NCBI RefSeq assembly: GCF_000619905.2
Contig: NZ_CP012371.1
Coordinates: 1 to 64,000 of the forward strand
Reading direction: 5' to 3'
DNA: 64,000 nucleotides
DNA from: Nitrosospira briensis C-128
GTDB taxonomy: Bacteria; Pseudomonadota; Gammaproteobacteria; Burkholderiales; Nitrosomonadaceae
Of this stretch, positions 6,669-48,456 are shown one piece after another. Numbering within the stretch: position 1 is the stretch's first letter; every line of letters starts with the position of its first letter. The notes under the pieces were generated by a model. That model had not been told where the DNA came from, ran no database searches, and saw nothing but the letters and a program-made list of their open reading frames with translations. The position numbers and the translations under genes were made by a program.

Positions 6669-7889
6669 CTAGACATAATAGGTCCACCATCTTCCCCTAT
6701 GGCTTGACTTGATGGTGGCAAACCAACGGCAAACCGGATAGAGCAGCGTAGTTATCGCAATCCAGATCAAATAGACGATGGGAAGGCTGAAGCCCCACCA
6801 GGGCGGGAAAAAAACCGGAATCGTCATGAATGAGCTGGTATCGCCGCTTATCGCATAGCCGAATACAATAACCAGAACATGAATGACATATAGATGGAGA
6901 ACGTAATAAAACAGGGGCACGCGTCCGAAGGTGATTAAAAAATTTCCCAAGAGCCCATGCCGCCGTTCGAATACCGAAAGCAGGATGAACATGGCCCCCA
7001 GGGTCATCAACAGGAACAGCAGGGAAGGGGGGTATTTTGTCGTGCTCAGAAAGGAAAAAAGCGTGAACAAGGTTGTTTCCTGGGTGGACCAGGACGAAGG
7101 GTCGCCATAGGTATTGTAAACGCGTAAAGTGACGAAGGCCGCGATGAGGACGGCACCGGATACAAGTGCTAGCTGTTTCCTTATCCTGGGCGTTGTCAGC
7201 ATCAAAGGGCCGAAGGCGTAGCCCGCCGCCATCACCCCGATCCAGGGGATGAGGGGATACATTACCGGAAAGCGCGGAATATGGAGCACGTTTAACACCC
7301 ATCCCTGCCATCCGAGCGATCCGTCCGCCATTTCAAAGTCCTCGAGCCGTATACCATCGAGCAGATTGTGCCCGGCAATCATACCAATACCCAGAACGGC
7401 GATCGACCACAAAGGCATATGGACGAGCCCGGCCAGCACGACCATTGACCACCCCAAGGCCCAGATGACCTGCAAATCCATCTGGCTATAGTCCAGATTG
7501 AAAAACCAGGCAAAGCGGACAACCGTAAGCTCGAGAATGACGAGCCAGAGCCCCCGGGTGAACAATCTGGCGGCAAGTTGATGGCGGTCCGGGCTGTGAG
7601 CAGCCGATAAAAAGGCGCTGGTGCCCGCCAGGAAGACAAAGGTCGGCGCGCAAAGATGCGTTACCCAGCGGGTGAGAAACAGGGCGGAATCCGTGCGCGA
7701 AAGATCGGTAGGACTAAAATCGGCATCCAGGAAATACCAGCGCACATGATCCAGCGCCATGAGGACGATGACCAGTCCACGCATTAAATCCACAGACGCG
7801 ATGTGGGGGATCCTTGACGGAATTGCCGAAGACGGATGATTCAAAGCGGATAACCCGGTATCGCTGACGCCAGTCGTATTCCCCATCAT
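6669..7889 (-). CDS. DUF1624 / heparan-alpha-glucosaminide N-acetyltransferase-like membrane protein
   Basis: A 406-residue polytopic inner-membrane protein with roughly ten hydrophobic segments. The family signature is at the N-terminus: SVDLMRGLVIVLMALDHVR (about 33-51), with the conserved Asp-His pair, followed by LCAPTFVFLAGTSAF. The family resembles the eukaryotic lysosomal enzyme that transfers acetyl groups across a membrane. In bacteria the acceptor is usually unknown, possibly a surface glycan. The O-acetylation pair at 8699-11377 on the other strand makes an exopolysaccharide role attractive but unproved. Confidence 0.8.
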   Translation of the reverse strand: MMGNTTGVSDTGLSALNHPSSAIPSRIPHIASVDLMRGLVIVLMALDHVRWYFLDADFSPTDLSRTDSALFLTRWVTHLCAPTFVFLAGTSAFLSAAHSPDRHQLAARLFTRGLWLVILELTVVRFAWFFNLDYSQMDLQVIWALGWSMVVLAGLVHMPLWSIAVLGIGMIAGHNLLDGIRLEDFEMADGSLGWQGWVLNVLHIPRFPVMYPLIPWIGVMAAGYAFGPLMLTTPRIRKQLALVSGAVLIAAFVTLRVYNTYGDPSSWSTQETTLFTLFSFLSTTKYPPSLLFLLMTLGAMFILLSVFERRHGLLGNFLITFGRVPLFYYVLHLYVIHVLVIVFGYAISGDTSSFMTIPVFFPPWWGFSLPIVYLIWIAITTLLYPVCRWFATIKSSHRGRWWTYYV

Positions 7890-7941
7890 TTTAAAATATG
7901 CCTCTGTATCATTTTCAGCTTGACGACTGCTCAGCTTATGT

Positions 7942-7993
7942 AGGTCGGGCTGCGCCCGACGATCAAGAAACCATGTCGGGCGCAGCCCGACCT
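7942..7993. repeat. REP-like perfect palindrome
   Basis: Two 19-bp arms that are perfect reverse complements (AGGTCGGGCTGCGCCCGAC and its complement) are separated by 14 bp. It lies upstream of the DUF1624 gene and can form a strong hairpin in either transcript. Each arm is itself partly palindromic, as in REP elements. Confidence 0.8.
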
Positions 7994-8077
7994 GGTTTCA
8001 GGATGGGACGGCTTCTCAGTGAACTGATGATCTTACTTGCACCTTAACCAAAATTAGAACAATTTCGATCATACAAG

Positions 8078-8208
8078 GGTGGGTGGAGCGTAGCGCAACC
8101 CATCATTTGGCTATTCTCATACCCTACCACGCTGGCGTCACGCCGGTATCCGGTCGTGATTAATGTGTGGTGTTGCGTGCTTTTGATGGGTTGCGCTTTG
8201 CCCCATCC
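8078..8208. repeat. Inverted-repeat element, family 3
   Basis: A 131-bp unit with long imperfect ends. The left end contains GGAGCGTAGCGCAACCCATCA, the right end TGATGGGTTGCGCTTTGCCCC. Its composition is typical of non-autonomous intergenic repeats that are common in Nitrosomonadaceae and other proteobacteria (established type; this copy is judged by its ends only). Confidence 0.65.
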
Positions 8209-8271
8209 ATACTGCTGAAAACCGTATGGAAGCATATTTTAAAATAGCGCCTCGACGTTGAGCTTCAAAGG

Positions 8272-8522
8272 TGTATAATTTTTCGATAGGGCAATCAGTA
8301 TACGTTGCCGGCTGTCGGACAGCCTGATTCAGCCCTATTCAGCCAGCCTCACTTTTCATGCCGCTTTCCCATTCCACGCCGGTCCGGTGTATACCAAGGT
8401 TGGTACTTGTCAGTTCTTCAGTAGCAGCGTATCCGAGCATTGCAAGACGCAGATGGGGATTAACGACTTTTCGCTCCATGTAGGGTAAACCTTGGCCGAG
8501 CCTGGCTCGGCAGTTCTTACCC
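8272..8522 (+). promoter_or_regulatory. Possible promoter and structured leader before the acetylation genes
   Basis: A TATAAT hexamer lies near 8274-8279, with only a weak match 16 bp upstream for a -35 box. Further down, 8483-8522 can fold into a two-part hairpin: outer stem GGGTAA/TTACCC and inner stem GCCGAGC/GCTCGGC with a 3-nt loop. Also at about 8394-8407 is a TACCAA-GG-TTGGTA palindrome. If transcription starts at 8285 or so, the O-acetyltransferase genes have a leader of about 400 nt. No long gene is seen in 7890-8698. Confidence 0.35.
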
Positions 8523-30937: not shown

Positions 30938-32044
30938 ATGGCCAAACCCGCCATTCAAGACCGTGCTGCCGGCGCCATCATGGGCGCCTTTATCGGAGAC
31001 GCCCTGGGCCTCGGCCCCCACTGGTACTATGACCTGGATGAACTTCACCGCGACTATGGTGACTGGATCACAACTTATACCGATCCCAAACCGGGCCGTT
31101 ACCATGACGGCCTCAAGGCAGGCCAGTTGTCGCAGGCAGGCATCATTCTCAGGCTCATGCTCCGTTCGCTCGTCGAGCGAGGCGGCTATGACGAAGCGGA
31201 TTTCTGCAGGCGCATGGATGAAGAGCTGTTTCCGTTGCTTGATGGCACTCCAGCGAACGGACCTGGCGGATATACAAGCCAATCCATCCGCAACGCCTGG
31301 CGCAAGCGCGTCCAGCAGAAACTGCCCTGGGGGCAAACGGGTGGCCATGCCGATACTACAGAAGCTATCGAACGCACGCTCGCCTTGGCGGTTCGCTATG
31401 CGACTCAGCCGCACGAGTTGGCGACAGTTATTTCCAATAATACCCGCCTTACCCAAATCGACGATATCGTGCTTTCGATGACCGTTGCTTACGGGGCGGT
31501 ACTGAGCCTCCTGGTGCAAGGGCACGAGCTCGACAAAAACCTGTCTGGCAAGCTGATGCAATTGGTGAAGACGGGCGAACTGCCTTTTCATGCAGTAACG
31601 CATTCAGATCTGCAACCGCCGCGCCCCGGCGACCCCGACCCGCCTCTCGCCGGGCGGTTCGCATCACCTGACGCCCTGCTGACACCTTCGTATGTTGCCG
31701 CCGCCGCCGCGGACCCGGGAATACAGATAGAGCCACCCTGGAAGGTATCCCTCGTATACGGCATGCCTTGCGCCATCTATCACCAGCTTCCCGCGGCCTA
31801 CTACCTGGCTGCCCGCTTCCCTCAGGACTTCGAATCGGCTGTGCTGCACGCCGTGAATGGCGGAGGGCAAAACCAGGCGCGTGCCATTTTGACTGGCGCG
31901 CTAGCCGGAGCCCAAGCCGGACTGTCAGGTATTCCCCAGCGCTTCGTCGACGGACTGGAAGAAGGCGAAACGCTCAGGCAGCTTGCAGTGGATTTGGCCA
32001 CTCAGGTAGGCAAACCGCCCGCTGGGGAGAGTAAAATCCAGTAG
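30938..32044 (+). CDS. ADP-ribosylglycohydrolase family protein
   Basis: A 368-residue protein of the DraG/ARH fold, with AAGAIMGAFIGDALGLGPHWYYD at the start and a ribosome site CGGAGGAGG. In classic members the di-magnesium site uses two aspartates in a GGDTDT loop near the end. Here the matching loop reads NGGGQNQARAILTGALAGA, so both acidic ligands are gone. The N-terminal GDALG aspartate is kept and QIDDIV replaces another. It may have a changed metal or substrate, or be inactive as a hydrolase. No nitrogenase partner is seen. Confidence 0.8.
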   Translation: MAKPAIQDRAAGAIMGAFIGDALGLGPHWYYDLDELHRDYGDWITTYTDPKPGRYHDGLKAGQLSQAGIILRLMLRSLVERGGYDEADFCRRMDEELFPLLDGTPANGPGGYTSQSIRNAWRKRVQQKLPWGQTGGHADTTEAIERTLALAVRYATQPHELATVISNNTRLTQIDDIVLSMTVAYGAVLSLLVQGHELDKNLSGKLMQLVKTGELPFHAVTHSDLQPPRPGDPDPPLAGRFASPDALLTPSYVAAAAADPGIQIEPPWKVSLVYGMPCAIYHQLPAAYYLAARFPQDFESAVLHAVNGGGQNQARAILTGALAGAQAGLSGIPQRFVDGLEEGETLRQLAVDLATQVGKPPAGESKIQ

Positions 32045-33966: not shown

Positions 33967-34566
33967 TTATTTTCCCAGGATGAGTTTATACTCGAATCTG
34001 GGCAGCTTTCCCAGATCCGCTTTGGTCTTCCCGGGAAGAATGACCTTAGGGACGATTTGTGAGAAGTCATTCGTGGGAATCGCGACCATATAAGTGCCAC
34101 GGCCCGGAAATCGACCCAGGTTAACAACGGCAAAGGTCAAAGACCCGTCTTTGGTAACGATAAAGTCATCAATTTTTCCAATTTTCTGGTTAGTGTCGTT
34201 ATAGACAGTTGCTTTTTTCAGCTTCGAAACGCGCCAACCGCTGGCAATAAGACGGGATTGGGCCGTGTCCGGCGCGGCGCCGTTGCTATCGGCGGCGGGC
34301 GTATCCATGCCGGGAGCTGTCGTAATAGCGCCAGGAGCAGCATTGGGCCCGGGAGCAGGACTCCTCATCGGCCTGCGGTCTGGTTTCATTCCGGGAGCGT
34401 TCGTCATGCCAGGAGCGGCAGTGGTTCCAGGAGTGTTATTCATATCCTTGCGAGTTGTATCCGTTCCGGGAGCGCTCGTCATATCCTTCTGGGCTGCTAC
34501 TGCGCCGATCAAGGAAAAGCTACAGATTACCGCAATAATTATTTTTCGAATACGCTTCAGGTTCAT
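33967..34566 (-). CDS. PRC-barrel protein 1, secreted, with APG repeats
   Basis: A 199-residue protein: a signal peptide (ending GAVAA-Q), a low-complexity stretch of SAPGTD/NTPGT/NAPGM units (about 28-90), and a PRC-barrel domain (about 105-199: ASGWRVSKLKKATVYNDTNQKIGKIDDFIVTKDGSLTFAVVNLG). PRC barrels are small protein-interaction or photosynthesis-related folds; in periplasmic proteins their ligand is unknown. A tandem paralogue at 34767-35291 is nearly identical in the barrel, with a shorter linker. Confidence 0.85.
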   Translation of the reverse strand: MNLKRIRKIIIAVICSFSLIGAVAAQKDMTSAPGTDTTRKDMNNTPGTTAAPGMTNAPGMKPDRRPMRSPAPGPNAAPGAITTAPGMDTPAADSNGAAPDTAQSRLIASGWRVSKLKKATVYNDTNQKIGKIDDFIVTKDGSLTFAVVNLGRFPGRGTYMVAIPTNDFSQIVPKVILPGKTKADLGKLPRFEYKLILGK

Positions 34567-34613
34567 GTCGGTCTCCTATTGATGTCCACTATCTAATTGC
34601 GCGGCCTCGCGGT

Positions 34614-34662
34614 GCGCTCACTTCCTGTATGCGCGCTTGATGTCGCTCTGCGAAGCATCGCC
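34614..34662 (-). pseudogene. Scar of the cbpA J-domain between the PRC paralogues
   Basis: About 49 bp resemble cbpA 33459-33506 (CTTCCTGTAxGCxCGCTTGA, then CTGCGAAGCATCGC). It shows that the tandem duplication started inside cbpA, included the PRC gene, and later lost most of the cbpA part. Confidence 0.75.
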
Positions 34663-34766
34663 ATGAGCTGGCCAAAACTTCCCACTCCTGGAACGCGAAC
34701 TTCCGATAGGAAGAAGGAAAAACGATTTTATGGCAGGAACCGTCGTGACAGATCCCAGATGTCATA

Positions 34767-35291
34767 TTATTTACCGAGGATGAGCTTATATTCGAATCTG
34801 GGCAGCTTTTCCAGATCGGCTTTGGTCTTCCCAGGAAGAATTGCCTTGGGGACGATTTGAGAGAATTTATGTATGGGAATAGCAACCAGATAATTTCCAT
34901 ACCCCAGGAATCGGCCCAGGTTAACAACGGCAAAAGTTAAGGATCCATCTTTGGTAACGATAAAATCATCAATTTTGCCAACTTTCTCATTGGCGTCGTT
35001 ATATACCGTTGCTTTATTAAGTTTCGATACGCGCCAGCCAGTGGCAATGAGACCAGACTCAGCCGCAGTGGGTGCGAGAGCACTGTTGTAACCCTCGGCG
35101 GGCGTATTCGTTCCGGGAGCAGTGGTAATGGCGCCGGGGGCAGCAGTGGTTCCTGGAGCGCTCATCATATCCTCGCCGGTTGTATTCGTTCCGGGAGCGC
35201 TCGTCATATCCTTCTGGGCTGCTGCTACGCCGATCAAGGAAAAGCTACAGATTGCCGCAATAATTATTTTTTGGATACGCTTCAGGTTCAT
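34767..35291 (-). CDS. PRC-barrel protein 2, tandem paralogue
   Basis: A 174-residue protein with the same signal peptide, APGT-repeat linker (shorter by about 25 residues) and PRC barrel as the gene at 33967. The upstream regions are also alike (TCTCCTATTGAT ribosome-site region), so each copy may have its own promoter. Both end in PRFEYKLILGK. Confidence 0.85.
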   Translation of the reverse strand: MNLKRIQKIIIAAICSFSLIGVAAAQKDMTSAPGTNTTGEDMMSAPGTTAAPGAITTAPGTNTPAEGYNSALAPTAAESGLIATGWRVSKLNKATVYNDANEKVGKIDDFIVTKDGSLTFAVVNLGRFLGYGNYLVAIPIHKFSQIVPKAILPGKTKADLEKLPRFEYKLILGK

Positions 35292-38057: not shown

Positions 38058-38562
38058 TTTTTGAATCGCAAAGAATGCGACGCCTCTGAAAGGACGTGCA
38101 CAAAGTTCAGGTTTTGTCGGCGACTGTACTCCTATTGTCTTTTCGCTTCCGTACGAAGCAACACATTGGGTGCAGCAACTGGCGGACAGTGGAAGCCCAT
38201 GGATGAACTGGATCAAATCGCAGGTAATCAAGCAATTCAAAGGTAAGGTGATGGAGCAGGGGAGGAAACTTACTATGCCGATTCGCGCTGCTCGCCGAGC
38301 GCCAAATCGGGACTAGCAAAAATAGACTATATTGATATTGTTACGCTTGGTGGCGTGAAAGAGATCTCGTGAAGTCCTCCGTCATCCCTACAAAGCCATG
38401 GATTAAAGACCGCCTGTCTCGCGCGTTCGATTCGTGCAGGCTTACAAGCTGAAATACCGAAGGCGGCTGAAGGGGCCTTTACAGAAATAGAAAATTATCA
38501 AAAAGCCGGCGCCTGATCATCCGGCCGTTCCCAACTTGACGGTCACCAAGGAATGTAGTGGG

Positions 38563-41500
38563 ATGATGCCTCCCATAAAAGAGCCAGACCTAGCCCTCGC
38601 CGGGGTGGCTTTACTCGTTATGTTTGGACTCTTGATGTGGTATGACAGCCCAATCAAGAGCTCCCATCCCCTTGATCCGTACGTCCAACCTCCAGACCCA
38701 CCTGTTACTGAATATGCTTATGAAAGCTGGTTGTGGCAGGACCCTTTCGAGTTTAAAAAACCTCATCCGAAACTGAAAAAAAATTTTGAAGATCAATGTA
38801 AAGATCAGTTAAAAAAACATAAAAACGACGTAAAAATATTGGCACCGTTATTAAAAGTACGGCCCGATACACTAGAAAATAAGGAATTGCGAACCAGGCA
38901 TCGCTACGCAGTAATTGCTGGACTAATAGAATCAGGCTATCGCCCCTCAGAGCCCGATCATTTGCGCTTTTGCTCAATTCAAAAGAAAAGTAGCAACAAA
39001 GAATATGACGTGCGGTGGGAGCTTTACCATCATGAATCAGACAAAGATAAACACATTGTTGTTGTCTGGATGAACAGTGAAATATTCACTCGTGATGATA
39101 AGTTAACTCTTGTGCTAGAGGATCTGTTTTTATCAAAAAGGATAAATGAAAATAAATTCTATATTTTTGATCAGAACAATATTTTTGATCAGAACCACTT
39201 CAAGACGAGATCAAAAAAATTAGGGATATTAATTAAGGATATTAATAATAGAATTAAAGATGAAAATGCAAATATCAAGCTCATCAAGCTTGTTGACACC
39301 GCCGACGATGAAGCACTTACTGAAAAACTAACCAACGAGCTAGTAAAACTACGCAATATTAAAGAATCATCTGAAGTCAGGATCATTACAGAACAAGATT
39401 CAGAACATGTTCGCAAGCTTGCGAGTACCTTCTGTGAATCGCTTCCTGACTCTCTTGGCAAAGGCAAGCAGCCTGTCACGGATGCAAAACCTGACACCTG
39501 TGAAATACGTGGAATAAAAAACGTTTTCTATCTAAAAAACGTGGACGCTAACCAGCTAATCGATAAGCAAAATAAAAATGAAGATTATCAAGCGGCCAGC
39601 AAACGGGCTGATCACCGTTCTGTTATTGATCTACATAATCCATCGCCGCTACCCATTGGTGCAGGTCAAGTGGATTACCTGCATCGATTGGCAAAGCAAA
39701 TTAAAGACTCTCATAATGATATAGATACAGAAAAACGCGATAGCGGCATAAAAGCGGTCGGCATTTTTGGCAGTGATTTTAACGACAAACTACGAATCCT
39801 TGAAACCTTGCGCGTAGAAATGCCTGAGATTCTGGTTTTTACAACCGATCTGGATGCGCAAATGTTTTCTCCGCAACATTGGCGCGCAACCAGAAACCTA
39901 GTTGTGGCCTCACACTTCAATCTTCGGCTTGATAATGAATATCAGGAACATTTTCCGGACTTTCGGGATAGCCAACAGACCGCCATTTTTTATCACACTA
40001 TCAAGATTTTCAAACGCGACGTCAAACCACCTGCATCCCAAATTTTTGAAATCGGCCGACACGGTCCTGTCCACCTGGTACAGGAAAAAAATGAAGAAAG
40101 TTCTATTCATACTCAGGATCAAGCCACCCAGCAGCTAAAGCTGCTGGGTTGGATTACATTGGTTCTTATCCTTTTTCTTTCGCAAGTACTTCCCAATTCC
40201 TGTTATTTAGTTAGCTGGCTGTCGTTTGGTTCGATCATAATATTTTTCATTGCCTGGTTTGCTGCTATAAACGGCCTCGGAGAGCCACTCAGCTTTAAAG
40301 ATGGCGTCAGCCTTTGGCCAACCATATTCATACAAATTATTGCAACCTTGCTGGCATGCGCATTTATCTTCTATGCAAAACTCATTCTTGAAGACAATTT
40401 TAAGATCATAGATAGACAATACTTTAATGGACAATACTTTAAAGATTCAAATGACGATGGCGGGTTAGTTCGTTGGTGGGTTTGCATCAATTCTATAATA
40501 ACATTCTTCGCCAGGTGCCCAGTCCTATGCCGCAGTGGGTTAGCTATTGGGGTTTGCATCATTTTTATGGTATCTAGTTTCGTCTATGCAATTAATGATG
40601 TATCTCCATCACATGTTCAGTTCTACGCTTGCTTAACGTTCCTTGGGCTATTCGCATTCTTCTATATACTGATATTTAATCTTTATGAAGAAAATTTTCG
40701 ATTTATCAAACAGTGGGCAGAAAAAGATACCCATAATGTCTTTAGATTATATGACCTGTGGCAGCAATATTGTGAGTACGGTCAATTTCAACATCGCGCA
40801 AGTCGTGTTGTCGCAATATGGTTATTCTTTGCAATCATTGAAACCATCCTTATTTACTTACTGCCACCCTGGCCATCGCCATGCCGGGGCGATACTTGTG
40901 ATTGGGTTTCCTGGATAGGGGTAATCAGTTTTGTTGTGGTCATGATTTTGCTCTTTTTTATACTGGATGCTGTAAGGCTGAGCTATTTCTGGATTAAAAA
41001 GCTGCGTACACACCATCCCCTACTCACTGATGAAACTACTCTAACAGTTGCGGATTTTCAGTACTTTAATGGCATAAAAAATAATACAAGTACTACACGT
41101 ACTATAGATACTACAAGTAGTATAAGTATTACCAGTCCTCCCAGTACTACAAGTACTACAAGTACTACAAGTACTACAAGTACTACAAGTACTATAAGTA
41201 CTACAAGTACTACAAGTTATCTTAACTCACTGGAAGAAATTGTTGACTTGGTCGCAGAAAGAACGCTGGTAGTCGACAAGCTTATTTACTATCCAATGCT
41301 TTGCATTATGTTGTTGTTGTTTGCCAAAATCACATATTTTGATAATCAGGAGTTCCCTCTTAGCAAAGGCATCACTTTTGCTGCAAGCATATCATTACTC
41401 TTCTTTGCGGGTTTTATGCTTCGAAAGGAGGCGGGCGATCTCAGGCTTTCCGTCATTAAGAGCGCCGAGAAACTGCTTAAAAAGAATTTATTTTGCAAAA

Positions 41501-41652
41501 CGGAAGTAGATGCAGTTATTAATAGAATAAATAACAACAACAAAGGTGCTTTTGAACCCATGTTCGAGCAACCCGTCATGCGCGCATTATTAATAATATT
41601 GGCATCTATCGGTATTTTCGCTGCCAAATATCTCAAGATATTTGAATCGTAA
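38563..41652 (+). CDS. Large AT-rich membrane protein of unknown family
   Basis: About 1029 residues from ATG 38563 (AAGGA about 10 nt before it); in-frame TTG at 38536 is less likely. Numbering from the TTG: one membrane helix (18-36), a soluble region of about 500 residues, then about ten membrane helices in 537-1035. The soluble part contains two alpha/beta segments; the second (AVGIFGSDFNDKLRILETLR at about 406, then LVFTTDLDA) looks like a Rossmann or periplasmic-binding fold. A Thr/Ser tract (about 850-895) is encoded by 9-bp repeats. The stop TAA is formed by the end of an IS3 element. Codon use is far more AT-rich than the neighbours, so it was acquired by transfer. I do not recognise a function; a membrane-anchored sensor or defence protein is a guess. 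Confidence 0.8.
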   Translation: MMPPIKEPDLALAGVALLVMFGLLMWYDSPIKSSHPLDPYVQPPDPPVTEYAYESWLWQDPFEFKKPHPKLKKNFEDQCKDQLKKHKNDVKILAPLLKVRPDTLENKELRTRHRYAVIAGLIESGYRPSEPDHLRFCSIQKKSSNKEYDVRWELYHHESDKDKHIVVVWMNSEIFTRDDKLTLVLEDLFLSKRINENKFYIFDQNNIFDQNHFKTRSKKLGILIKDINNRIKDENANIKLIKLVDTADDEALTEKLTNELVKLRNIKESSEVRIITEQDSEHVRKLASTFCESLPDSLGKGKQPVTDAKPDTCEIRGIKNVFYLKNVDANQLIDKQNKNEDYQAASKRADHRSVIDLHNPSPLPIGAGQVDYLHRLAKQIKDSHNDIDTEKRDSGIKAVGIFGSDFNDKLRILETLRVEMPEILVFTTDLDAQMFSPQHWRATRNLVVASHFNLRLDNEYQEHFPDFRDSQQTAIFYHTIKIFKRDVKPPASQIFEIGRHGPVHLVQEKNEESSIHTQDQATQQLKLLGWITLVLILFLSQVLPNSCYLVSWLSFGSIIIFFIAWFAAINGLGEPLSFKDGVSLWPTIFIQIIATLLACAFIFYAKLILEDNFKIIDRQYFNGQYFKDSNDDGGLVRWWVCINSIITFFARCPVLCRSGLAIGVCIIFMVSSFVYAINDVSPSHVQFYACLTFLGLFAFFYILIFNLYEENFRFIKQWAEKDTHNVFRLYDLWQQYCEYGQFQHRASRVVAIWLFFAIIETILIYLLPPWPSPCRGDTCDWVSWIGVISFVVVMILLFFILDAVRLSYFWIKKLRTHHPLLTDETTLTVADFQYFNGIKNNTSTTRTIDTTSSISITSPPSTTSTTSTTSTTSTTSTISTTSTTSYLNSLEEIVDLVAERTLVVDKLIYYPMLCIMLLLFAKITYFDNQEFPLSKGITFAASISLLFFAGFMLRKEAGDLRLSVIKSAEKLLKKNLFCKTEVDAVINRINNNNKGAFEPMFEQPVMRALLIILASIGIFAAKYLKIFES
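41085..41217 (+). repeat. 9-bp tandem repeat tract (ACAAGTACT) inside the large membrane gene
   Basis: Units of ACAAGTACT with variants run from 41085; the cleanest run is 41142-41217. The unit length is a multiple of three, so copy-number change alters only a Ser-Thr-Thr linker between two membrane blocks and never the frame. Confidence 0.9.
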
Positions 41653-42433
41653 GCTCCCCGTCAAGTAGACAATTCAAAAGTAGAATTTTTCCCGCGAGCA
41701 GCTGCTCGCGGAACACAGCTGGGGGCAGGTTTCCCAGTGCGTCATGGGGACGTTCCTCGTTATAGCTTTGAAGCCATTGATGCGTGATTTCCCGTACTTC
41801 CTCAAGCGATGCAAACAACCAGCTATTGAGTACCTCGGTCCGGTATGATCGGTTGAAGCGCTCAATGAATGCGTTTTGATTCGGCTTGCCCGGCTGGATA
41901 AAGCGCAGTTCGATACCCTTGCTTTTGCACCAGTCGGCCAGATGCTGTGAAGTGAGTTCCGGGCCATTGTCGAGTCGTATTGCTTTAGGCAATCCACGCC
42001 AGGCTTCCAACTGTTGCAAAGCCCGCACAACCCGTTGCGCGGGCAGGCTCGTATCTATTTCGATAGCTAACGCCTCCCGCACGCCTTCATCCAGAATATT
42101 CAAGGTGCGAAATCGCCGTCCTTGATAGAGGCTGTTGCTCATGAAGTCCAAGGACCAGATCTCATTGGGCCACAGCGGCGCGTCCAAAGGCTGTGCCGGC
42201 CTGATCAAACGCCTCTTGGCGCGACGCGGAAGATTCAGTTTCATCTCGCAATAAATCCGCCAGACTCGCTTGTGATTCCACGGATGACCTTCTAACCGCA
42301 GCCGGTTGTGACACTTCCAGAATCCCCAACGGCTATGTTTGGCTACGACCGCATTGAGCGCGTCAATCACCGGCATATCACGCACCGCAAGCTTGTTCTC
42401 TTCCTGGTAATACGCCGCCCGTGACAGGTTCAC
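41633..42433 (-). CDS. IS3-family transposase OrfB (DDE integrase domain)
   Basis: A 266-residue frame with the rve integrase core: IWSLDFMSNSLYQGRRF (first Asp), AIRLDNGPELTS (second Asp), QPGKPNQNAFIERFNRSYRTEVL (Glu). The part upstream that should join OrfA (APPERRDMVLRLAKDQRLSI) is in another frame than SCQLVNLSRAAYY, pointing to a 1-nt indel near 42445. The frame also runs out of the element into flanking DNA before stopping. This copy may be inactive. Confidence 0.85.
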   Translation of the reverse strand: MNLSRAAYYQEENKLAVRDMPVIDALNAVVAKHSRWGFWKCHNRLRLEGHPWNHKRVWRIYCEMKLNLPRRAKRRLIRPAQPLDAPLWPNEIWSLDFMSNSLYQGRRFRTLNILDEGVREALAIEIDTSLPAQRVVRALQQLEAWRGLPKAIRLDNGPELTSQHLADWCKSKGIELRFIQPGKPNQNAFIERFNRSYRTEVLNSWLFASLEEVREITHQWLQSYNEERPHDALGNLPPAVFREQLLAGKILLLNCLLDGELTIQIS

Positions 42434-42842
42434 CAGTTGGCAGGATCGGTGATGGACAATCTCTGATCCTTCGCCAAACGCAAAACCATATCCCGGCGTT
42501 CAGGCGGCGCTACAGCTTTTTTAATACCACCTTGATCGCTTCATTCTCCAGCGCAAGGTTGGCATACATACGTTTGAGCTGGCTGTTCTCCGCTTCCAGC
42601 TCTTTTACCCGCACCAACTCGGAAACATCGAGGCCACCATACCTGGCTTTCCACTTATAGTAAGTCGCTGAACTGATCCCATGCTTGCGCCAGATCTCGT
42701 TGACCGCTACGCCGCTATCGGCTTCCTTCAATATCCCAACAATCTGGCTTTCCGTAAATTGCGATTTCTTCATTTGAACCTCCAGCTAAAATCCTGCCAG
42801 AAAGTTCTACTTTTTGCTTGTCCCTTAAATGGGGAAGCTTAC
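41649..42842 (-). mobile_element. IS3-family insertion sequence
   Basis: About 1.19 kb bounded by inverted ends GTAAGCTCCCCG (left) and GTAAGCTTCCCC (right, reverse strand). It holds orfA (42510-42773) and orfB (about 41633-42433). A slippery A-A-A-A-A-A-G stands at the end of orfA. The left end abuts and forms the stop codon of the large membrane gene. No clear target duplication is seen. Confidence 0.85.
42510..42773 (-). CDS. IS3-family OrfA (HTH)
   Basis: An 87-residue protein, MKKSQFTESQIVGILKEADSG, then an HTH region (VNEIWRKHGISSATYYKWKARYGG) and a leucine-rich C-terminus for multimerisation. It ends at the A6G slip site where a -1 frameshift would produce OrfAB. Confidence 0.92.
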   Translation of the reverse strand: MKKSQFTESQIVGILKEADSGVAVNEIWRKHGISSATYYKWKARYGGLDVSELVRVKELEAENSQLKRMYANLALENEAIKVVLKKL

Positions 42843-43004
42843 GGAATAATCAATACCTATAGCCAAATGTTGTGTATGGCGGCATGATCAAGCGGCAACT
42901 TTTGGTCATTTTTTATATGGGGCCCAGGAAACGCGGTTTTGGTGCCACCAGAGATGCTGACCGAGCTCATCGGAAAAGAATCCGGCAATTTGGCAATTTG
43001 TATG

Positions 43005-45689: not shown

Positions 45690-45948
45690 CCCAGTCAATG
45701 TAACGAACTTGCGAATACGTGGCAGCCGGCGTGCGGGGTGCCCACTGCATATCAAGAATGGAATAATTCTCGAACGGATAAAAACGATGTAACTTCACTT
45801 CTGCAATAAACCGGGACGGCAAGAAAAAGGTGCGCGTCTCCATTTTGCAGCGCGTACCCACGTGCGTCCTCGACGCTCTGCTTTGCAGAGCTGCCGGGCC
45901 AACTGCGGCACAAGAATCTTTCCTCGTCTGTACACGGTATCTCTGCCC

Positions 45949-48456
45949 ATGTCCTTCCAAATGAATTCATCTGCCACTTTGATGATGGTGCTCGTTTTAT
46001 CATTGGCTGGCACGCTTTTCAACGCGGCCTTCGCGGATGAACAGGTTCGTGAATCCACGCCCGCACCAGCACAAATTGCCCCGGCACAACTCACTCCAGC
46101 GCAAGCCAGGCACACGCTTTCCATTCTGCAGGATGAAAGGAAACGAGCAGAGCTCGAGGAAACCCTGAGTGCAATAGCTCAAGCCACGGGCGGAGCGCCG
46201 GTCGATGCAGACGCGTCCGCTGCAACTGCTACGCCCGTAGCGCCTGCCGAATCGGCAGCGGAAAAAAAAGCGCTGCCTATAGAACTGGCGGAGGGTGGTC
46301 TGATTGCTCAGGTGTTTGACCTGTTGGCAAAACGCGTGGATGCGGTTGTCGGCCAGCTGCGATCCACCGCCCGCATGCTGTTTCAGATAAGGACAGTGGG
46401 CGACTGGTGGGAGTATAACCTGGGTGTACCGGAGCGCCGGGCGGTGGTGCTCGACGCGCTGTCGGAGACAGCCCTCACGCTGGCTGGAGCGCTTCTCGCG
46501 TATTGGCTGCTGGCGTTTGCGCTCCGTCGGCCTCGCAGGCTGGTCGAGGACCGCGCGGCTGCTCGCCAGGTCGCTGCACAATCGAAGGTGAAGGCGGAAG
46601 CCGTCCCCGGTCTGGCTTTCCCGAGTGAACACTCTGTTGAACCCATGCGAAGGGTGCCGGCCGCTGAGCGTCACTGGAGCCTTCTGCGCCGGCTGCCGTT
46701 TGCCGTTGCACACTGGGTACTGGAATTGCTTCCATTGATCGCTTTTGTGGCTGTCTCCATCGTATTGCTGAATGCGTTCGGTGGCCGGTCCACTCCGTTT
46801 TACAGCGCCACCATCTTGATAGTCGGCGCGTACGCCGCCACGCGAATCGCGTTGAGCGTGGTTCATCTCATGGCGTCGCCGCTCGGGCAGGGCCTGCGGC
46901 TGATGCACATCAGCGATGGCGCGGCGGATTTCCTGAATCGCTGGTTGCGGTGGATTATCGTGGTGGCCGTATTTGGTACCGCCATCGCCGATATCGCTCT
47001 TCAAACGGGCGCGACCTCCGATACGCATCTTGCGCTTTCCCGATTGGTCGGCCTGGTTGTTCATGTGATGTTGCTGATCATGGTCTTTCGCAGTCGAAAA
47101 GCGACTGCAGCGGCTATCCGTGGTGCCGCTTCAGATAGCCAGGACTTGTTCGGGATTCGCGGGATGCTGGCGGATAGCTGGTCGTTTGTCGCGACATTCG
47201 TTATCGTTGCCATGTGGTTGCTGTGGTCGGCGGGGGCGGAGAATGGTTTTCAGCACGTGCTTCAGGTTTTTGCATGGTCGGCAGCGGTAATCGTCTGCGC
47301 GAGTCTGGTGTCGATTTTCGTCTTGGGCGCGATTGACCGCGCATTCATCGAAAATATCGAAAGCAAACGAGCCCAGTTGGGTCAGTCAAGCGACTCGGGA
47401 GAGATAGCGCCCGAGTCCGCCGCAAAAAATACTTATCACCTGCTGGTGTATCGAGCGGTCTCCACGTTGATCGGCATTGTCGCATTTATTGCGTTGCTGC
47501 AAGTCTGGGGCGTGAATACCCTTTCCTGGTTTGAAAGCGGGTCGGTAGGGCGACGTCTTGCTTCCGCCGTCGCCACGATCGCGGTTACCTGCATGTTGGC
47601 GTTCATGGCATGGGAAGCACTCAATAAGGCGATGTCCCGGCGCATCGACCGGTGGATAAAGATTGGAGATGCCGCGCGGGCCGCACGGCTTCGTACTTTG
47701 GTGCCCATGTTGCGCGCCACCGTGTTCTTTATCATAGGGCTGATTGTGCTGCTCGCAGCACTGAACGAGCTGGGTATTACTATTGGGCCGCTGTTGGCGG
47801 GCGCCAGCATTATCGGCGTCGCGTTGGGTTTCGGCTCCCAGAAGCTGGTGCAGGATTTCATTACCGGCCTCTTCCTCCTGATGGAAAATGCCATTCAGGT
47901 TGGCGACTTCATCACCGTGGCAGACGTATCGGGATCGGTCGAGCACCTGTCGATACGTACCGTGCGTCTACGTGCTTCCGATGGTGCGTTGCATGTCGTG
48001 CCGTTCAGTTCCGTTACAACCGTGACCAATGTCAATCGCGGCATTGGCAACGCCTCCGTCAGAGTCAGCGTAACGGCCGACTCGGACGTAGACAGGGTTC
48101 TTGAGGCGATCACAAGCGTGGGCGAAGAGATGCGGGCCGATCCACGATTCAGGGATCTGATCCTCGCGGATGTGGAGATCTGGGGGGTGGATCAGGTCGA
48201 TGGCTCAATGATTACCATTCTTGGGCAGATACGCACGCTGGATAGAGGCCGATGGCCGGTGCAGCGTGGCTTTAACCGGCTCATCCTGCAGCGCTTCCGG
48301 GAACGGGACATCCAATTTGCCAACCCACAGAAAAGACAGGTGGTGGCGCAATTGCCCAGATCTTCTCCAACGTATCCTTCGGAAGCCGAGGCAGGGGCCG
48401 AGGCTGGCGCTGCCGTTATTGCAGCGCACCAGAATGGAGAGTCCAAAAAAAGCTAG
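45949..48456 (+). CDS. Large mechanosensitive channel of the MscS/KefA type
   Basis: About 835 residues from ATG 45949 (ATG 45961 is the alternative; neither has a strong ribosome site). The signal peptide ends NAAFA-D, then comes an Ala-rich periplasmic coil and about ten membrane helices. The MscS pore and beta domain follow (AGASIIGVALGFGSQKLVQDFITGLFLLMENAIQVGDFITV, then VPFSSVTTVTN). It releases solutes on hypo-osmotic shock. The long N-terminus places it with MscK/YbiO-type channels. 45690-45948 holds no gene. Confidence 0.92.
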   Translation: MSFQMNSSATLMMVLVLSLAGTLFNAAFADEQVRESTPAPAQIAPAQLTPAQARHTLSILQDERKRAELEETLSAIAQATGGAPVDADASAATATPVAPAESAAEKKALPIELAEGGLIAQVFDLLAKRVDAVVGQLRSTARMLFQIRTVGDWWEYNLGVPERRAVVLDALSETALTLAGALLAYWLLAFALRRPRRLVEDRAAARQVAAQSKVKAEAVPGLAFPSEHSVEPMRRVPAAERHWSLLRRLPFAVAHWVLELLPLIAFVAVSIVLLNAFGGRSTPFYSATILIVGAYAATRIALSVVHLMASPLGQGLRLMHISDGAADFLNRWLRWIIVVAVFGTAIADIALQTGATSDTHLALSRLVGLVVHVMLLIMVFRSRKATAAAIRGAASDSQDLFGIRGMLADSWSFVATFVIVAMWLLWSAGAENGFQHVLQVFAWSAAVIVCASLVSIFVLGAIDRAFIENIESKRAQLGQSSDSGEIAPESAAKNTYHLLVYRAVSTLIGIVAFIALLQVWGVNTLSWFESGSVGRRLASAVATIAVTCMLAFMAWEALNKAMSRRIDRWIKIGDAARAARLRTLVPMLRATVFFIIGLIVLLAALNELGITIGPLLAGASIIGVALGFGSQKLVQDFITGLFLLMENAIQVGDFITVADVSGSVEHLSIRTVRLRASDGALHVVPFSSVTTVTNVNRGIGNASVRVSVTADSDVDRVLEAITSVGEEMRADPRFRDLILADVEIWGVDQVDGSMITILGQIRTLDRGRWPVQRGFNRLILQRFRERDIQFANPQKRQVVAQLPRSSPTYPSEAEAGAEAGAAVIAAHQNGESKKS

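Follow-up and report, generated by a model that had tools for sequence, protein, structure and literature searches.

The first 64,000 nucleotides of contig NZ_CP012371.1 of Nitrosospira briensis C-128 (here the window; the genome is a single contig of 3.21 Mb) carry, on the forward strand, a gene for a large membrane protein with the predicted layout of a chemoreceptor. Its open reading frame (ORF) runs from a TTG at 38536 to 41652 and comprises 1038 codons with no internal stop. As start codon we prefer the ATG at 38563, because an AAGGA motif lies 9 nt 5' of it and because four of the six orthologues from the protein's own subfamily have a longest ORF that starts at the corresponding position (subfamily A below; the ORFs of the other two, in genomes G033 and G020, are longer). 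The protein then has 1029 amino acids (aa). The ratio of nonsynonymous to synonymous substitution rates (dN/dS) between the window gene and these orthologues is 0.24-0.48, with synonymous sites partly saturated, and we therefore conclude that the gene has been under selection and the protein kept for function. A short block upstream recurs 17-90 bp 5' of the ORF starts in three relatives: in G020 and G008 it is 85% identical along 40-46 bp, and in G013 24/24 bp agree. The features of the locus, with the evidence for each, are as follows.

38475..38520, + strand: upstream block, candidate promoter or leader (common to subfamily-A orthologues of three relatives)
38549..38553, + strand: AAGGA, ribosome-binding-like site (spacing to ATG 38563)
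38563..41652, + strand: coding sequence of the receptor-like protein (intact ORF, orthologue starts, dN/dS)
38584..38646, + strand: N-terminal membrane anchor helix (hydropathy)
38818..40104, + strand: periplasmic type I binding-protein (Venus flytrap, VFT) domain, residues 86-514 of 1029
40132..40194, + strand: linker membrane helix joining the VFT domain to the seven-transmembrane (7-TM) module (hydropathy, predicted structure)
40204..40266, + strand: helix S1 of the 7-TM module (hydropathy, predicted structure)
40315..40425, + strand: long helix S2, extending into the cytoplasm (predicted structure)
40534..40680, + strand: two extra membrane helices in the S2-S3 loop (hydropathy, alignment counts)
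40786..40860, + strand: helix S3 (predicted structure)
40894..41013, + strand: long helix S4 (predicted structure)
41085..41217, + strand: 9-bp tandem repeat encoding the Thr/Ser S4-S5 loop (repeat analysis, alignment)
41203..41325, + strand: helix S5 (predicted structure)
41359..41481, + strand: long helix S6 (predicted structure)
41497..41532, + strand: cytoplasmic helix S7a (predicted structure)
41572..41646, + strand: S7b, last membrane helix (hydropathy, predicted structure)
41648..42843, - strand: insertion sequence (IS) that encodes an rve-type transposase and directly adjoins the last codon of the gene (terminal repeats, Pfam)

Predicted architecture

An initial annotation of this DNA had read the protein as an N-terminal anchor, an alpha/beta region with a possible ligand-binding fold, about ten membrane helices and a length-variable linker, and each of these elements is borne out. 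Hydropathy gives one N-terminal membrane helix and, beyond an alpha/beta region of ~430 residues, ten others (overlapping peaks merged by hand), plus a weak peak at 646-666. In the predicted structure, the VFT region folds into two alpha/beta lobes as in the LivJ/AmiC class, with inserts modelled at low confidence; the folds closest to it are those of ABC substrate-binding proteins and of AmiC, with LivJ and UrtA among them. On the strength of this model we are nearly certain that the region is a VFT domain, held at its N-terminal end by the anchor helix and at its C-terminal end by the linker helix. The STAND- or TIR-like fold that had also been suggested found no support.

The full-length model was built from an alignment (A4) of 61 of 80 relatives, leaving out rows that contained X, were short or split, or were near-duplicates. 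Its transmembrane (TM) fold matches cannot be read from the VIA list because VFT matches fill it. For the TM module, modelled on 59 relatives plus the window protein (A7), the best structural matches among those listed are insect gustatory and odorant receptors (GR/OR: BmGr9, DmGr43a, Orco). The model has three long helices (H88-122, H203-243, H312-353) and a split S7 (H359-377 and H402-414); its weak spots are S5, which comes in several pieces, and the last helix, which is of low confidence. Positive-inside counts agree with an N-in/C-out orientation of S1-S7 in 60/60 rows, the segment limits having been chosen by hand from the structure model. According to PMC9998090 and PMC11100771, the features of seven-transmembrane ion channels (7TMICs) include long helices that form a cytosolic anchor and an S7 split into S7a and S7b. 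That the modelled bundle is 7TMIC-like is, in our judgement, probable; the arrangement seen in insect receptors is supported, not proven, by the model.

Two loops vary. The S2-S3 loop holds two extra helices in 5/60 aligned rows (the window protein, three proteins from gammaproteobacterial metagenome-assembled genomes (MAGs) and Magnetocorallium); by the same count, five of the seven subfamily-A proteins have two such helices and two have one. The S4-S5 loop, which is the variable linker of the initial annotation, is encoded in the window by 14.8 copies of a 9-bp unit (41085-41217) that specifies a Thr/Thr/Ser repeat, and is 65 aa long versus 9-33 aa in the six orthologues.

Database searches

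The description of the protein as unrecognised also stands: its best Pfam match has an E-value of 0.19 and it has no NCBIfam match. When 60 family members were compared with Pfam, the best E-value was 0.003 (DUF6297) and weak matches were scattered across unrelated families, so that Pfam, NCBIfam and PDB-sequence searches yielded no trustworthy homology for the family. Rows for CFTR and G-protein-coupled receptors (GPCRs; E 0.56-0.97) and for a ribosomal protein (E 0.53) were discarded as chance-level. Both modules escape the profiles of the folds that they resemble: Pfam searches of the window protein and of four relatives gave no Peripla_BP match, and a profile-profile comparison of the VFT region with LivJ (27 sequences) returned a probability of only 1.6%; 7tm_7 was above cut-off in 0/5 genomes, and both 7tm_7 and 7tm_6 are absent among the 25 listed of the 62 Pfam families matched by the 60 members. 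Judged by sequence, no named family among those searched fits the receptor.

Distribution and phylogeny

A family member is present in 25 of 61 sampled genomes (the window genome plus those of 60 relatives): 20/23 from the genus, 4/14 from the rest of the family and 1/24 from the rest of the order. Subfamily A occurs in six of the 23 genomes of the genus and in G033, from another genus; its members are 54-58% identical to the window protein within the genus and 42% in G033. The window genome also encodes a paralogue (1073 aa, 28% identity, ~3,126,655-3,129,876). About 9 kb from it, at 3,138,924-3,139,871 (G000, L160), lies the sole Peripla_BP_6 match of the genome (E up to 1e-5), a gene found once each in nearly all sampled genomes of the genus.

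Across a sample of the phylum, the family occurs in 6/398 genomes, the window genome included; in the phylum of Nitrospira defluvii it occurs in 28/148, one of them a broken piece. A pattern scan of 84,980 species genomes found 213 relatives. The 80 best, which we retained, comprise 43 from Pseudomonadota, 27 from Nitrospirota, seven from Planctomycetota, two from Myxococcota and one from Thermodesulfobacteriota. By record title, these 80 include the nitrifiers and anammox bacteria Nitrospira (21), Nitrosospira (13), Nitrosovibrio (3), Nitrococcus, Nitrosomonas and Brocadia (2 each), and Scalindua and Nitrotoga (1 each); Variovorax (8) and several methanotrophs are also present. One 'Nitrosospira' MAG (L096) has a gene neighbourhood of the Nitrospira type. 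Note that, because the scan orders its hits by similarity to a query of Nitrosospira type, these 80 cannot prove enrichment in nitrifiers. The genus, phylum and N. defluvii-phylum samples do point that way, and within these samples the receptor type is found largely in nitrifying bacteria.

We placed 73 proteins (61 relatives, six subfamily-A proteins, five others and the window protein) in a tree, using a quick method with SH-aLRT support. A clade of 28 rows (support 100) unites 11 Nitrosospira/Nitrosovibrio rows, among them the paralogue of the window genome, with 17 others that are all from Nitrospirota; that paralogue adjoins the member from Nitrosospira sp. Nsp11. Subfamily A forms a separate clade (100), close to three gammaproteobacterial MAG proteins (96). 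The simplest reading would be that the Nitrosospira line received the gene from Nitrospirota, but with the tree rooted at its midpoint this direction is tentative.

Genomic context

The receptor gene has a GC content of 0.398, compared with 0.525 and 0.543 in its two 4-kb flanks, and the lowest value for any 3117-bp slice of the window outside the gene (100-bp steps) is 0.5085. The composition is thus as unlike that of the neighbours as first described, down to the exact count of 17 G/C in the 60 bases from 39181; 60-mers as AT-rich as this one number 35/306 inside the gene and 45/6394 window-wide (10-bp steps). As a sign of recent import, the apparent AT-rich island is doubtful. Low GC relative to the flanks is common to 7/7 subfamily-A genes, including five at a conserved chromosomal place, so that there is no contrast from which import could be argued, and we rejected that explanation. 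For 77 genes of the wider family, GC minus that of the flanks averages -0.006 +/- 0.028.

At that conserved place, found in 5/5 other carriers of subfamily A in the genus, the gene has an inositol-monophosphatase-family gene on one side and, on the other, a small gene whose YgaP-like-TM match is below threshold (Pfam calls made on one example each), in a stretch that includes what we take to be glycosyl- and heptosyltransferase genes. The window copy is not at this place. Apart from three short pieces, a DNA search with the two G020 flanks recovered only the small gene, at 3,179 kb, from the window genome, and a protein search with a glycosyltransferase of the usual stretch, run without a positive control, gave no match there. 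Because the upstream block is common to G020, G008 and G013, gene and leader probably moved together. Decayed subfamily-A pieces in the window genome (~3003 kb; L154 ~8074-8343) and in G006 (L155 ~7800-8113) are evidence of loss of the subfamily.

The initial annotation had placed the gene between a dead reductase gene and an IS. Both are there. The IS has an rve/HTH_21 transposase, and inverted repeats form its termini (41648-41689 and 42801-42843). The receptor's TAA stop (41650-41652) falls within the terminal repeat of the IS, which supplies the stop; in the alignment, orthologues finish at the same position or one residue short of it. The broken reductase consists of three ORF pieces, of which two match Pyr_redox_2 (one above the curated cut-off, one below) and the third matches nothing. 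Elsewhere in the window, two tandem, similar ORFs with proline/glycine-rich repeated linkers (33967-35291; 199 and 174 aa) look like a duplication, an ADP-ribosylglycohydrolase-family gene lies at 30938-32041 (Pfam E 1.7e-57), and a mechanosensitive-channel-family protein (MS_channel in Pfam; 45862-48453) is encoded after a catalase gene 3' of the IS.

We surveyed 80 loci for recurrent neighbours (L135 lacks a called family ORF; in L074 the family ORF is in two parts). No neighbour family recurs beside the receptor across distant genera, although neighbours were not individually annotated. The initial annotation was right to see a single-gene module. Recurrent neighbours within two ORFs are each confined to one lineage. 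In L036 (6394-7584) and in 10/80 loci, the latter all from Nitrosomonadaceae, a membrane protein of ~400 aa adjoins the paralogue; it is a possible partner of this paralogue group only, and the copy in the window genome has no Pfam match. In Nitrospira loci, a protein that we take to be TPR-like recurs alongside an unnamed one and others, and in Variovorax two families do. We take none of these neighbours as a pointer to function. A gene presumably encoding an NnrS-like membrane protein is found in 15/80 loci (L073-L096, L139), nearly all from Nitrospirota, usually one to four ORFs away.

Discussion

How might such a protein work? We consider the chances about even that it is a one-protein inner-membrane chemoreceptor in which a VFT domain is joined to a helix module of 7TMIC arrangement. 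Since LivJ, AmiC and UrtA are among the nearest folds, the ligand that closes the VFT domain would be a small polar solute resembling an amino acid, an amide or urea; the linker helix and the bundle's conserved periplasmic loops would pass the motion on, and it might open the S7b-lined pore of an oligomer. This would amount to the logic of an ionotropic glutamate receptor (iGluR) mounted on a bundle of insect-chemoreceptor type. For the putative channel activity, we rate the chances as a little short of even. More tentative still is the broader proposal that bacteria possess a family of ligand-gated ion channels whose 7TMIC pore, of insect-chemoreceptor type, is controlled by a periplasmic binding-protein domain, and that horizontal transfer has spread this family between anammox bacteria and oxidisers of ammonia and of nitrite.

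There are several other scenarios. The bundle might not be a channel at all and instead signal, as in class C GPCRs, to an unknown cytoplasmic partner through its long helix ends. The sum of a VFT domain and seven helices, the length of those cytoplasmic ends and the metabotropic glutamate (mGlu) receptors at ranks 5 and 10 of the Foldseek list for the full-length model (where NMDA-receptor rows also appear) fit this idea. We nonetheless think it unlikely: no partner gene adjoins the receptor across distant genera (though it could be elsewhere), the 7-TM part that follows the linker helix is N-in/C-out whereas that of GPCRs has the opposite orientation, and class C GPCRs are absent among the 50 TM-module matches listed, as are iGluRs, an absence that excludes neither. 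Rather unlikely, too, is a transporter whose tethered VFT domain passes solute to the bundle for import. The likeness of the VFT fold to ABC substrate-binding proteins and AmiC would suit it, and for nitrifiers a solute resembling an amino acid, an amide or urea would make sense. Against this, insect receptors rather than transporters head the listed TM-module matches, and a phmmer search of the ORFs of the 80 loci with E. coli LivF, LivG, LivM and LivH found none that match LivM or LivH. LivF/LivG-like ATPase ORFs, presumably of an ABC-F-like family, occur in 11/80 loci from several genera, at four to eight ORFs from the receptor and never within two; ordinary ABC import is therefore disfavoured.

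It is also conceivable that the window copy is idle or decaying, given that subfamily A persists in just 6/23 genomes of the genus and has left decayed pieces in this very genome and in G006, and that the window copy is off its usual place with a stop codon supplied by an IS. An intact ORF, the dN/dS values and the retained ribosome-binding site and upstream block make this improbable. Even less credit, to the point of near dismissal, goes to an anti-phage or other accessory effector, the defence role that had been proposed for an AT-rich gene adjoining an IS and a pseudogene: the lone PADLOC match is to a 2TM effector (E 0.014, 69 residues), plasmid searches with the window protein and with the paralogue found nothing, nor did a phage search with the paralogue, the only query used there, and subfamily A holds one place in its other carriers within the genus while the paralogous group is present in 20/23 of its genomes. 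Signalling, the other role then raised, was rightly named, as a possibility only.

If the chemoreceptor reading holds, the protein combines traits of several known systems. Like insect GR/OR proteins, it would have an N-in/C-out TM module with long S2, S4 and S6, a split S7 and a variable S4-S5 loop; unlike them, it is bacterial, has extra anchor and linker helices and yielded no sequence signature of that family, and the solved insect receptors are not known to carry an extracytoplasmic VFT domain. The predicted two-lobed fold is that of LivJ/LivK, AmiC and UrtA (Peripla_BP_6), but it is tethered at both ends, unlike free ABC binding proteins, and the proteins scanned have no Peripla_BP match. 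As in iGluRs, a VFT module is predicted to be joined to a membrane module, a parallel in logic; iGluRs have a P-loop tetramer pore and a split ligand-binding domain, whereas the best listed matches of this TM module are insect GR/OR proteins. Class C GPCRs (mGlu, GABA-B) likewise place a VFT domain before a 7-TM part, but one of opposite orientation; here S1 starts inside, after the linker helix.

Bacterial 7TMICs are not new as an idea, because PMC11526382, a review, credits Himmel et al. 2023 with evidence favouring eukaryote-to-prokaryote transfer of 7TMICs. PMC9998090 reports no Orco-like structures in the prokaryotic proteomes screened there, and PMC12187929 adds nothing further on bacteria. 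Among the listed titles and abstract openings of open PMC papers, we found none on this family or on a VFT-7TMIC fusion in nitrifiers or elsewhere.

Should the proposed architecture and function be correct, the insect chemoreceptor channel fold would gain a bacterial model that can probably be expressed and that keeps ligand binding in a separate, soluble module. The family would tie the channel fold of animal taste and smell to a bacterial solute sensor, and would bear on the age of that fold and the origin of its chemical sensing. It would also suggest that nitrifiers of different phyla have in common a sensor dedicated to some solute. Even without the channel reading, 20/23 sampled genomes of an ammonia-oxidiser genus carry an unnamed receptor-like family.
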